A DNA stretch of 64,000 nt from Erysipelotrichaceae bacterium (GTDB lineage: Bacteria > Bacillota_I > Bacilli_A > ML615J-28 > CAG-313), in NCBI GenBank assembly GCA_015059015.1, contig SVBG01000008.1:1-64000 (forward strand). Reading direction: 5' to 3'. Positions 54,427 to 62,076 of the stretch are shown piece by piece (position 1 is the first letter of the stretch; the number at the start of each line of letters is the position of its first letter). Both the position numbers and the translations under genes were made by a program. The notes under the pieces are model-generated. The model was not told the origin of the DNA and ran no database searches. It saw only the letters and a program-made list of their open reading frames with translations.

Positions 54427-57099
54427 ATGTTTAAAGGATTAAAAAAATTATTTGACCCATCATATAAAGAATTAACAAGATGTGAAAAGATTGCTGATAA
54501 CGTTATTGCTCTTGCTGATACTTATAAAGCAATGAGTGAAGAAGAACTTAAAAATCAGACTAATATTTTTAAAGAACGTCTTGCAAATGGTGCATCTTTA
54601 GATGATATTATGGTTGAAGCGTTTGCTACTGCAAGAGAAGCATCTACAAGAGTACTTGGGATGACTCCTTTTAGAGTGCAAATCATTGGTGCTGCTGCAA
54701 TGCATTTTGGTAATATTGCAGAAATGAAAACAGGTGAAGGTAAAACACTTACTTCTGTTATGGTTGCATATTTAAATGCATTAACTGGTCGTGGTGTTCA
54801 CATTGTTACAGTTAATGAATACTTAGCAACACGTGATGCTACTGAAATGGGTGAAGTTCATAAATATTTAGGACTTACAGTAGGCTTAAACTTAAGAGAA
54901 TATAGTAGTGAAGAAAAACGTGCTCAATATGCATGTGATATTACTTATTCTACAAATAATGAACTTGGATTTGACTATTTAAGAGACCATATGGTAGTTT
55001 ATAAAGAAGATATGGTTCAACGTCCTGAATTATTCTTTGCTATTGTCGATGAAGTTGACTCAATCTTAGTCGATGAAGCAAGAACACCATTAATTATTTC
55101 TGGTGGTGCTAAACAAGGATATAATTTATATGAACAAGCTAATACATTCTGTAAAAGACTGACTGAAGATGTTGATTTTGAAATTGATGAAAAGTCAAAA
55201 CATGCATCTCTTACTCCTGAAGGGATTGTTAAAGCTGAAGAATATTTCCATTTAGATAACTTATATGATATTAGTAATGTAGAATTATTACATCGTATTA
55301 ATAATGCATTAAGAGCTAATTTCATTATGAAAAATCAAGTAGACTATGTTGTTCAAGATGGTCAAATTATAATTGTTGACCCATTTACTGGTCGTTTAAT
55401 GCATGGTCGTCAATGGAGTGAAGGTCTTCATCAAGCTATTGAAGCAAAAGAAGGCGTTGAAATTAAGAAAGAAACTAGAACTCTTGCTACTATTACATTC
55501 CAAAATTATTTTAGAATGTATGCTAAACTTGCTGGTATGACAGGTACTGCTAAAACTGAAGAAGAAGAATTTAGAGATATTTATAATATGTTAGTTGTAG
55601 AAATTCCTACAAATGTTCCTGTTATTAGAGTTGATGATCCTGATTTAATTTATTTTTCTGAAAAGGCTAAATATGAAGCAATTTCTGAAGAAATTAAACG
55701 TCGTCATGAACTTGGTCAACCAATTCTAGTTGGTACTATTTCAATTGAAACATCTGAATTGTTATCTTCTATTTTAAAGAGAAAAGGTATTCCTCATAAT
55801 GTTTTAAATGCTAAACAACATGCTAGAGAAGCAGATATTATTTCTCACGCAGGTGAAAAAGGTGCTGTTACTATCGCAACAAATATGGCAGGGCGTGGTA
55901 CGGATATTAAACTTGGTGAAGGTGTTCGTGAACTTGGTGGTCTTGCAGTGCTTGGTACAGAACGTCATGAATCACGTCGTATTGATAATCAGTTAAGAGG
56001 TCGTTCTGGTCGTCAAGGTGACCCAGGATATAGTAGATTCTATTTATCAACAAAAGATGAATTATTAATTCGTTTTGGTGGAGATAGACTTGAAAGAATG
56101 TTATTAATGATCACTGATAAAGATGCATCTGGTGAAATGGCTCCAATTGAATATAAACCATTCTCTGGTGTAGTTGAAAGTGCTCAAAAGAAAATTGAAG
56201 GCCAAAACTATGATAGACGTAAGAGTGTTGTTGAATATGATGAAGTTTTAAGAAAACAACGTGAAGTTATTTATGGTCAAAGAAAAGATATTTTATTCTT
56301 AGATGATATTGAACCAACAATTTATAAAATGATTGAAAATGTTGCTTATCGTGAAGTTGCAAAATATGCAGACTTAAACGATCCATCAAAAATTGATGCA
56401 ATTCGTTTTATGAAAGAGTTTGTTATTAGATATTTTGATCAAGGTTATATTATGGTTCCATGTCCAAAATGTCAAAAAGTTCAACGAGTTCATGATGGTA
56501 TTCCATCTCGTTGTACAAATCCTGAGTGTCGTTTAGAATTTACAGTAACAAGACGTAGAGATACTGATGCACAAAAAGCAATTAAAAATACTATTTCAAT
56601 TGAAGAAATTGAAGGAAAGACTTTAGTAGAGGTTCAAGAGTACATTTATAATGTATTAAAAACAAATCTTGATTCTAAAAAAGCTGATGCAGATCCTAAT
56701 AATTACAAAGAATTCTTAAAACGTAATTTATTAAGTGTTGTAGATAAACATTGGATGGATCATATTGATCAAATGAGTACACTTCGTCAAAGCGTTTCTC
56801 TTCAATCATATGGTCAAGTAAATCCACTTCGTGAATATCAAGAAATTGGTTTTGAAATGTTTAGTAAGATGATTGAATCAATTGAATCTGAAACTGTTGC
56901 ACTTATTAACTGTAGATTTATTCCTGTTACAATGGGTGAACGTGAAAGAGTTGCTAAAATTGTAGGTACATCTGGTGGATCTAGTGATGATGATGGTAAG
57001 AGAAAGCCAGTTGTTAATAAAACTAAAAAAATAGGTCCTAATGAACCTTGTCCATGTGGTTCAGGTCGTAAATATAAGCATTGTTGTGGACGTAAATAA
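54427..57099 (+). CDS. secA: preprotein translocase ATPase SecA, with an extra internal zinc ribbon
   Basis: The motor of Sec export. MKTGEGKTLTSVM (Walker A) near 102, IVDEVDSILVDEARTPLIISG near 207, TNMAGRGTDIKLGEG near 491 and HESRRIDNQLRGRSGRQGDPG define it. The C-terminal zinc motif is CPCGSGRKYKHCC. Unusual: around residues 679-702, in the helical scaffold/wing part, lies a four-cysteine stretch CPKCQ...CTNPEC, an extra zinc-ribbon insert that B. subtilis and E. coli SecA lack. At 890 residues it is slightly long for a Bacillota SecA. Confidence 0.95.
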   Translation: MFKGLKKLFDPSYKELTRCEKIADNVIALADTYKAMSEEELKNQTNIFKERLANGASLDDIMVEAFATAREASTRVLGMTPFRVQIIGAAAMHFGNIAEMKTGEGKTLTSVMVAYLNALTGRGVHIVTVNEYLATRDATEMGEVHKYLGLTVGLNLREYSSEEKRAQYACDITYSTNNELGFDYLRDHMVVYKEDMVQRPELFFAIVDEVDSILVDEARTPLIISGGAKQGYNLYEQANTFCKRLTEDVDFEIDEKSKHASLTPEGIVKAEEYFHLDNLYDISNVELLHRINNALRANFIMKNQVDYVVQDGQIIIVDPFTGRLMHGRQWSEGLHQAIEAKEGVEIKKETRTLATITFQNYFRMYAKLAGMTGTAKTEEEEFRDIYNMLVVEIPTNVPVIRVDDPDLIYFSEKAKYEAISEEIKRRHELGQPILVGTISIETSELLSSILKRKGIPHNVLNAKQHAREADIISHAGEKGAVTIATNMAGRGTDIKLGEGVRELGGLAVLGTERHESRRIDNQLRGRSGRQGDPGYSRFYLSTKDELLIRFGGDRLERMLLMITDKDASGEMAPIEYKPFSGVVESAQKKIEGQNYDRRKSVVEYDEVLRKQREVIYGQRKDILFLDDIEPTIYKMIENVAYREVAKYADLNDPSKIDAIRFMKEFVIRYFDQGYIMVPCPKCQKVQRVHDGIPSRCTNPECRLEFTVTRRRDTDAQKAIKNTISIEEIEGKTLVEVQEYIYNVLKTNLDSKKADADPNNYKEFLKRNLLSVVDKHWMDHIDQMSTLRQSVSLQSYGQVNPLREYQEIGFEMFSKMIESIESETVALINCRFIPVTMGERERVAKIVGTSGGSSDDDGKRKPVVNKTKKIGPNEPCPCGSGRKYKHCCGRK

Positions 57100-57167: not shown

Positions 57168-58271
57168 ATGGAAAAATTTGAAATTGTTAAAGCAAAAGAT
57201 GATTTTACTAAAAGACTAAACGCGATAAAAAAAGTAATTGACTATGATAATTTAAAGTTAAAAATTAAAGAATTAGAAGGTAAAATGCTTGCTGATGATT
57301 TCTGAAGTGATCAAGCGAATGCTTCTAAAATTATTAATGAGTGTAATGAATTAAAAGAGAATTTAAATACTTATGAAAAATTAGTTAATAATTTAGAAGA
57401 AATAGCTTTAGTTTTAGATTTTGATGATGAAGAATTATATTTATTAGTTGAAGAAAATATTAATAATTTAGAAAAAGCTTTAAAAACTTTTGAAAATGAG
57501 CTATTATTAGATGGTGAATTTGATAAGAAAAATGCTATTATTGAACTTCATCCTGGTGCTGGAGGGACAGAGAGTCAGGACTGGGCTTTGATGCTGTATC
57601 GCATGTATAAACGATATGCTGAACGTCATAATTTTAAGTTTGAATTAATTGATTATCAAGAAGGTAATGAAGCAGGTATTAAGAGTGTTACTTTTAGTAT
57701 GAATGGTCGTCATGCGTATGGAATGTTAAAAGGTGAAGGTGGAGTACATAGATTGGTTAGGATTTCTCCATTTGATTCTGCGTCACGTCGACATACATCG
57801 TTTGTTTCTTGTACTGTTATTCCAGATATTGATGAAGATATTGAAATTGACATTAAAGATGAAGATTTAAGAATTGATACTTATCGTGCAAGTGGTGCTG
57901 GTGGACAACACATTAATAAAACTGATTCCGCAGTTCGTATTACACATTTACCTACTGGTATTGTTGTTTGTTCTCAAAGTCAAAGAAGTCAAATTCAAAA
58001 CCGTGAAAAGGCTATGCAAGTATTAAAATCTAGACTTTATCAAAAAGAACATGAAACGCTTGAACAAAAGAAAAAAGAAGCTGCTGGTGAAATGATGGAA
58101 AATGGTTGGGGTAGTCAAATTAGAAGCTATATTTTACATCCGTACTCATTAGTAAAAGATCATAGAACAAATGTTGAAAGTAATCAACCACAAGTAGTAT
58201 TAGATGGTGATTTAGATGAGTTTTTAATTACTTATTTACAATGGCTAAAAAAAGGTGATGAAAATGTTTAA
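57168..58271 (+). CDS. prfB: peptide chain release factor 2 with an in-frame UGA at a conserved Trp codon
   Basis: RF2 ends translation at UAA and UGA. The full gene starts at ATG 57168 (AGAGG site 7 bp upstream). Codon 46 is TGA (57303-57305), reading MLADDF-UGA-SDQANASK; homologues have Trp there (EFWND in B. subtilis, DVWNE in E. coli). The frame continues unchanged to 58271, so no frameshift is needed. The usual +1 site (CTTTGAC near codon 25) is gone: GTAATTGACTAT stays in frame. The rest is normal: RISPFDSASRRH with the SPF specificity triplet, and GAGGQHINKTDS with the catalytic GGQ. Without readthrough, translation could restart only near 57588, removing the N-terminal domain. Options: UGA readthrough control, recoding or a base error. 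Confidence 0.88.
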
Positions 58272-60357: not shown

Positions 60358-62076
60358 ATGAAAAATAAAAAATTAATTGATTATATTTCAAAAGTTGCAA
60401 TCTTTTCTGCACTTAGCTTTATTTTGTATTTATTTCCAAAGTTTCCACTTCCTTTTTTTCCATCCTTTTTAGAAATTCAATTTTCTAATCTTCCAGCAAT
60501 CTTAGGTGGATTTGTACTTGGACCTCTTGGTGGATGTTTAATTGTAGTAGTTAGATTTGTCTTAAAATTAGTGTTTGGCTTGTCTTCTACAGCAGGAGTT
60601 GGTGAAACTGCAGATTTATTACTTGGTATTTGTGTTGTATTATCTTCTAGTTTGATATATAAATATAATAAAAATAAACGTGGTGGAATCCTTGCGTTAA
60701 TATGTTCTGTTATAGTTTGGGTAATATCTAGTGTATTTGTTAATTACTATATTAATGTCCCTTTCTTTGTAAAAGCTTATTGTGGTGGAGATATTAATGG
60801 GCTTGTTGTGATATGTAAACCAGTAATTAAAGGAATTAATAGTGAAAACTTTTTAGAGTATTATACAAAATTTGCAGTAATTCCATTTAATTTACTTTTA
60901 TCTGTTATTGTAGGAATTATTACTTTCTTTGTGTATAAAAGAATTTCAAATATCTTTAAAAAAGATTTCTTTGCAGCTGGCAAAAAACGTATTCTAGTTA
61001 TTTGTGATTCATTTAAAGGAACACTTTCTTCAAAAGAAGTTGGAGAAATCGTAGTAAATAATGTTAATAAAAATAAGTATATTGCAGAATACTTACCAAT
61101 TAGTGATGGTGGTGAAGGATTCTTAGATGCATTATTAATGTGGAATAAAAATTTAAAAGAATATTATGTTATGAGTTGTGATGCATTTAGAAGAGTTAAT
61201 TCATCTAAATATCTATTTGATAAAGAAACTAAAACATTATATTTTGAACTTGCAGAATGTGTAGGTATTAAAGATTTATCTAAAGAAGAACTAAATCCAT
61301 ATCTTGCATCTACTTATGGGCTAGGTATTGCAATTAAAGAAGCGATTATTAAACATCATCCTTCTAAGATTATTGTAGGTATTGGTGGATCTGCATCTAA
61401 TGATGGTGGTGTAGGTATGCTTGAAGCAATGGGGGTTAAGTTCTGTGATAAAGAAGGTAATGTAATATACGGAATGTGTAATGGCAAGTTAAAAGATATT
61501 TACGCAATCGGAACTGAATCTTTTAATAAACTTATAGGTAATATTGAATTTGAAGTTTTAACAGACGTATCTAATCCATTACTTGGTGAAAAAGGTGCAA
61601 CATATGTCTTCTCACCACAAAAAGGTGCTAAAAAAGAAGATTTACCTATTTTAGAAGCTAATATGTGTAAATATAATGAGATTGTTAAAAATCACTTCAA
61701 TAATGATTTCAATATTGTACCTGGTACAGGTGCTGCAGGTGGAGTTGGATTTGCTTTTGTAGCATTTATGAACGCAAAACTTTCTCTTGGTATTGACGTT
61801 TTATTAAAGAGTTATCATTTCGATGAACTGGTAGAAAAATATGATATTGTTCTTACTGGTGAAGGAAGACTTGATGAACAAAGTTTAAATGGAAAAGTTA
61901 TTTCTGGTATTATGAGTTATAACCCTAAACAATTAGAATTTGTTGTAGGATCTTGTGCAATAGAAGATGTTGTATATACTGTTCATGCGATAGTACCTAC
62001 TGTTGCAACACTTGATGATGCTATTAATAAACCTAAAGAAAGTTTAACTAAATTAATAAAAAAAGATTTTAATTAA
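60358..62076 (+). CDS. fusion of a RibU-type riboflavin ECF transporter subunit and a glycerate kinase
   Basis: Residues 1-~200 are an ECF S component for riboflavin: five or six spans, FPKFPLPFFPSFLEIQFSNL, FVLGPLGGCLIVVVRFVLK and VPFFVKAYCG, matching RibU. Residues ~209-572 are a complete glycerate kinase of the GlxK type (glycerate + ATP to phosphoglycerate): ICDSFKGTLSSKEV, LPISDGGEGFLDAL, GIGGSASNDGGVGMLEAMG and GTGAAGGVGFAF. No stop, ATG or ribosome site lies at the junction (near 60975). Such a fusion is unusual, since the two activities are unrelated. The FMN riboswitch would thus also control glycerate kinase. The last 168 bp recur at 62991-63158. Confidence 0.9.
   Translation: MKNKKLIDYISKVAIFSALSFILYLFPKFPLPFFPSFLEIQFSNLPAILGGFVLGPLGGCLIVVVRFVLKLVFGLSSTAGVGETADLLLGICVVLSSSLIYKYNKNKRGGILALICSVIVWVISSVFVNYYINVPFFVKAYCGGDINGLVVICKPVIKGINSENFLEYYTKFAVIPFNLLLSVIVGIITFFVYKRISNIFKKDFFAAGKKRILVICDSFKGTLSSKEVGEIVVNNVNKNKYIAEYLPISDGGEGFLDALLMWNKNLKEYYVMSCDAFRRVNSSKYLFDKETKTLYFELAECVGIKDLSKEELNPYLASTYGLGIAIKEAIIKHHPSKIIVGIGGSASNDGGVGMLEAMGVKFCDKEGNVIYGMCNGKLKDIYAIGTESFNKLIGNIEFEVLTDVSNPLLGEKGATYVFSPQKGAKKEDLPILEANMCKYNEIVKNHFNNDFNIVPGTGAAGGVGFAFVAFMNAKLSLGIDVLLKSYHFDELVEKYDIVLTGEGRLDEQSLNGKVISGIMSYNPKQLEFVVGSCAIEDVVYTVHAIVPTVATLDDAINKPKESLTKLIKKDFN

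Follow-up and report, generated by a model that had tools for sequence, protein, structure and literature searches.

An in-frame UGA at a conserved tryptophan codon of prfB points to probable release factor 2 feedback by readthrough in a genus of gut and rumen Bacilli

The window, that is, the whole stretch of 64,000 nucleotides that was analysed, comes from the genome of an Erysipelotrichaceae bacterium (G000) and carries on its forward strand prfB, the gene for peptide chain release factor 2 (RF2), at positions 57168-58271. It is adjoined upstream by secA (54427-57099, forward strand), whose SecA features were recognised by eye. When codon 46 is read through, prfB encodes 367 amino acids, with SPF at residue 200 and GGQ at residue 245, and ends with a TAA codon. 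The best matches of this read-through protein among solved structures were RF2 chains (E 2e-125). Elsewhere in the window, a 572-aa ORF at positions 60358-62076 seems, by eye only, to be a fusion of an ECF-transporter S-component-like membrane domain and a glycerate kinase domain.

Codon 46 of prfB is UGA (57303-57305, forward strand), followed by an A and embedded in the context GAT GAT TTC TGA AGT GAT CAA; it is the single in-frame TGA in the gene. The matched solved RF2 chains have tryptophan at this site, reading FWNDQ where the sequence translated here would read FWSDQ. A sequence-only reading of this DNA had claimed that UGA replaces a tryptophan of the homologues with the frame unchanged, and the full-length RF2 translation bears this out. 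Upstream of the UGA lies a leader of 45 zero-frame codons (57168-57302, forward strand), expected to be the product whenever RF2 is plentiful. Downstream, codons 47-141 (57306-57590, forward strand; TTG at codon 141) form a zero-frame coding segment predicted to be reached only by translating the UGA. Past the UGA the -1 frame closes within 2 codons and the +1 frame within 9-16 codons, so frameshifting at codon 46 would not help. The position of the classic RF2 frameshift, codons 23-26 (57234-57245, forward strand), reads GTA ATT GAC TAT fully in frame and lacks the slippery CTTTGAC, just as the sequence-only reading had described.

The same reading had proposed a comparison of codon 46 in related genomes, and this confirmed its observation. 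Four species of the genus yielded prfB (this genome, G003, G001 and G002), and each of them has TGA at this codon; in whole-genome searches it was the one TGA inside the gene in every case. A fifth member, with an assembly 71% complete, yielded no prfB. The counterparts come from separate gut or rumen metagenome assemblies (RGIG1779 from goat cecum, RUG293 and SRR873608_bin.193). Their RF2 proteins are 98% (G003), 68% (G001) and 66% (G002) identical to that of this genome, and synonymous divergence is about 1 across the deep split of the genus (dS ~0.9). All four genes have Phe before codon 46 and continue with A[G/C]T GAT CAA. The distance of 45 codons from the ATG to codon 46 is shared by the four genus members and by the other family members.

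Among the genomes compared, the UGA is specific to this genus. Among 112 prfB loci compared, several of them redundant, codon 46 encoded Trp in 99 and Tyr in 5, was a stop in 7 and appeared misaligned in 1, and all 7 stop-bearing loci come from this genus. The other family members have TGG (10/10), and the sister family has either TGG or TAT. In about half of the examined sister-family genomes (e.g. L019, L020, L026, L030) Tyr (TAT) replaces Trp at this codon, which suggests that the position is more relaxed in this order than elsewhere. A maximum-likelihood tree built from 44 RF2 proteins placed the four UGA genes together in a single clade inside the family (support 100/99). The four UGA genomes represent a single evolutionary origin and roughly three independent lineages. 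Wider searches of the class returned no further genuine UGA case among the matches listed, and a second class query listed 46 genomes, none with an internal TGA in prfB. Two genomes flagged in these searches were set aside: G214 carries its internal stop at a classic frameshift site, and G137 has its stop close to the alignment's C-terminal end with none in 5-362, in both cases away from codon 46.

The history of the frameshift site was traced in the same relatives. CTTTGAC was absent from prfB in all 30 other order members examined (the ten family members and the sister family), in which the zero frame is open, and its combination with a Shine-Dalgarno-like stimulator was found in none of the genus or order members examined; the relatives with TGG at codon 46 among them have no intact frameshift site. 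Some other families of the class do carry the classic CTTTGAC. The sequence-only reading had spoken of a frameshift site that was lost: its absence stands, but it was not lost along with the gain of the UGA, being missing throughout the examined order. This distribution indicates that the genus gained its internal UGA on a background already devoid of the frameshift site, so that an internal UGA would have been re-acquired later.

The codons beyond the UGA behave as coding sequence. In this genome no ATG or GTG start lies between the UGA and codon 142, and codons 47-141 would therefore be made only through the UGA. Compared with G003, this segment shows 9 synonymous changes and 2 that are non-synonymous; the chance of so few non-synonymous changes is about 2e-5 (hand binomial, with ~80% of sites taken as non-synonymous). 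Over the sequence after the TGA, dN/dS was 0.05 for G000-G003, 0.16 for G001-G002 and 0.25-0.26 for pairs on opposite sides of the deep split; the dS of the pairs compared ranged from 0.13 to 0.96. These substitution patterns indicate that purifying selection acts on the codons predicted to be reachable through the UGA alone. Zero-frame coding selection acts on both sides of the UGA, a codon that elsewhere in the genome serves as a stop. Each genome has a single RF2-like gene, and no second one turned up. Full-length RF2 would very probably require reading through the codon-46 UGA. Considering the conserved position and the tRNA described below, Trp is likely the residue inserted; the predicted tryptic peptides that would span codon 46 with W are MLADDFWSDQANASK in this genome, MGEDGFWSDQR in G001 and MSEDDFWTDQR in G002.

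The use of UGA was surveyed in 864 kb, or 43% of the G000 genome. TGA ends 40 of 584 long ORFs (6.8%), against 10.5% for G002 and 3.5-9.7% for those family members whose prfB has TGG. Requiring coding-like sequence on both sides, no nearby start codon and no shadowing ORF, we found prfB to be the only internal TGA in these 864 kb. A scan of 240 kb of G002 returned prfB and one further internal TGA, on C4 (L170, ~2085, minus strand). It separates two open stretches, one of 957 codons and one of 429, and belongs to a long, repetitive protein that looks surface-like (LYAKWIEN*TASD). This is not obviously a Trp position, and the site may represent a disrupted gene or adjacent genes. A tRNA-Trp(UCA) suppressor was not found, there being no UCA anticodon among 28 tRNAs. 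Selenocysteine insertion was considered and rejected: no tRNA-Sec scored above the curated cut-off, and only ordinary tRNAs appeared below it. The RF1 gene, prfA, is absent together with its flanks from the 98%-complete G000 assembly; since it is intact in three congeners, its absence is taken as an assembly gap.

The sole tRNA-Trp of this genome has the anticodon CCA (G000:C7:207427-207500; L167:1427-1500). In all four UGA genomes tRNA-Trp(CCA) has C9 and a U11-A24 pair, and the top pair of the anticodon stem is an unpaired C27·U43 in G000 and G003 and G27·U43 in G001 and G002. Three substitutions in the tRNA-Trp of E. coli, A9C, G24A (Hirsh) and G43U, are reported to make readthrough of UGA possible (PMC13092985). 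C9, A24 and C27·U43 also occur together in family members with a TGG prfB (G006, G007, G012), so these features are not a specific co-adaptation to the UGA. A9 is found in the tRNA-Trp of G008, G009 and the sister family, and some sister-family members have G24. Judging from this pattern, the permissive tRNA-Trp probably preceded the UGA in prfB. All four genus members have A directly after the UGA (+4), a context reported to favour misreading of UGA by tRNA-Trp in E. coli (PMC5289835). Since A also follows ordinary TGA stops here more often than any other base does (20/44), this context is not distinctive and carries little weight. A hairpin around the UGA of this genome (z -2.2) was rejected as a conserved stimulatory RNA structure, as it is not present in G001 or G002 and the alignment showed no covariation.

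RF2 is the only release factor that terminates at UGA. In the mechanism that we propose, the near-cognate tRNA-Trp(CCA) would read the codon-46 UGA as Trp, giving full-length RF2. When RF2 is plentiful, translation would end after 45 codons; when it is scarce, tRNA-Trp would win at the UGA and more RF2 would be made. Because RF2 alone terminates at UGA and competes there with tRNA-Trp, it would limit its own synthesis. Readthrough by tRNA-Trp as RF2 feedback had already been suggested by the sequence-only reading, and it emerges as the best-supported interpretation, given the conserved UGA, selection on both of its sides, the use of UGA as a stop otherwise, the specificity of RF2 for UGA and the features of tRNA-Trp; from these we infer the dependence of readthrough on RF2 and its regulatory role. 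The best explanation, which we consider very likely, is that these gut and rumen Bacilli control RF2 by feedback through readthrough of UGA as Trp.

The main rival is readthrough without regulation, in which a UGA-prone tRNA-Trp allowed the change from TGG to TGA to be tolerated; RF2 would have been lowered by a roughly fixed factor, and the change would have drifted to fixation with no feedback role. The tRNA-Trp with C9, A24 and C27·U43 is indeed older than the TGA in the family, UGA stop usage, and hence RF2 demand, is low across the family (about 3.5-10%), and nothing resembling a special readthrough context or structure was found around the UGA. Yet the sole internal UGA in 864 kb sits in the very gene whose product reads UGA, and the TGA has been kept while synonymous divergence rose to about 1, even though TGG is a single transition away. 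Where RF2 and the tRNA compete for UGA, moreover, feedback should follow even if the change arose by drift. For these reasons we regard unregulated tolerance as unlikely.

A second possibility is an early change of the genetic code, with UGA turning into Trp in the genus, prfB being just one of the genes concerned, and RF2 decaying as in Mycoplasma. An in-frame UGA at a Trp codon in AT-rich genomes would fit this, and lineages with UGA as Trp are apparently found in the same GTDB class, in several families with genomes of ~0.7-1.2 Mb that gave no strong RF2 match. Against it, the share of long ORFs ending in UGA in this genome and in G002 is not below that of relatives, the 864 kb contain no other internal TGA, tRNA-Trp(UCA) is absent, and RF2 is under strong purifying selection. 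An early code change is thus already largely excluded, and we consider it very improbable.

Fainter still is the prospect that prfB is a pseudogene, or that a shorter RF2 is made from an internal start past the UGA. An in-frame ATG does occur at codon 84 in G001 and G002, but G000 and G003 offer no ATG or GTG before codon 142, which lies inside the region homologous to the catalytic part; the zero-frame purifying selection extends over both codons 47-141 and the leader, and a second RF2 gene was not found. A sequencing or assembly error of TGG has a negligible probability: all the genomes are metagenome assemblies, but the identical base occurs in four species assembled separately. Judged from these comparisons, the TGA is therefore neither a sequencing error nor the mark of a pseudogene.

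The +1 programmed frameshift of RF2 is a textbook autoregulatory recoding event, and feedback by readthrough would share much with it: a UGA near the start and in frame in the very gene whose product reads UGA, a full-length RF2 that needs escape from termination, and the same feedback logic. The two differ in that prfB of this genus has no CTTTGAC or spaced Shine-Dalgarno-like stimulator, that its second ORF stays in the zero frame instead of the +1 frame, that the UGA is at codon 46 and not at about codon 26, and that decoding by a near-cognate tRNA would take the place of the frame change.

The nearest precedent is found in Mimivirus R726 and Megavirus mg280 (PMC3521657), where a class-I release factor gene also has UGA readthrough, with proposed Trp insertion by a Hirsh-like tRNA-Trp and proposed autoregulation. 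Those genes are viral, encode a factor of the eukaryote/archaea type unrelated to RF2, and involve a separate frameshift in addition. The Mycoplasma-type code 4, together with tRNA-Trp(CCA) having a 4-bp anticodon stem (PMC13092985), resembles the present case in the use of UGA as Trp, in A24 and in the unpaired 27·43 seen here in two species. In contrast to code 4, UGA remains a genome-wide stop here, RF2 is kept, and in the 864 kb surveyed the internal UGA is confined to prfB.

Autoregulation of RF2 by readthrough was envisaged before the gene was sequenced, as recounted in the 2016 review by Atkins, which stated that such an in-frame UGA occurs in none of the RF2 genes sequenced and that the frameshift had not been swapped for readthrough in any known organism (PMC5009743). 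A 2025 survey of prfB in 12,753 genomes took each premature stop for a frameshift site and made no mention of readthrough (PMC12421855). In the open-access journal literature, we found no later report of RF2 autoregulation by readthrough. There is a good probability that the gene described here is the first natural bacterial RF2 gene with feedback by UGA readthrough, evolved anew after loss of the frameshift and favoured by an ancestral UGA-prone tRNA-Trp.

Automatic annotation may label such prfB genes as pseudogenes. If our interpretation is true, this genus would supply the missing case, in which a single transition at a Trp codon brought back RF2 feedback that had been lost, and this regain would be linked to a tRNA-Trp prone to reading UGA.
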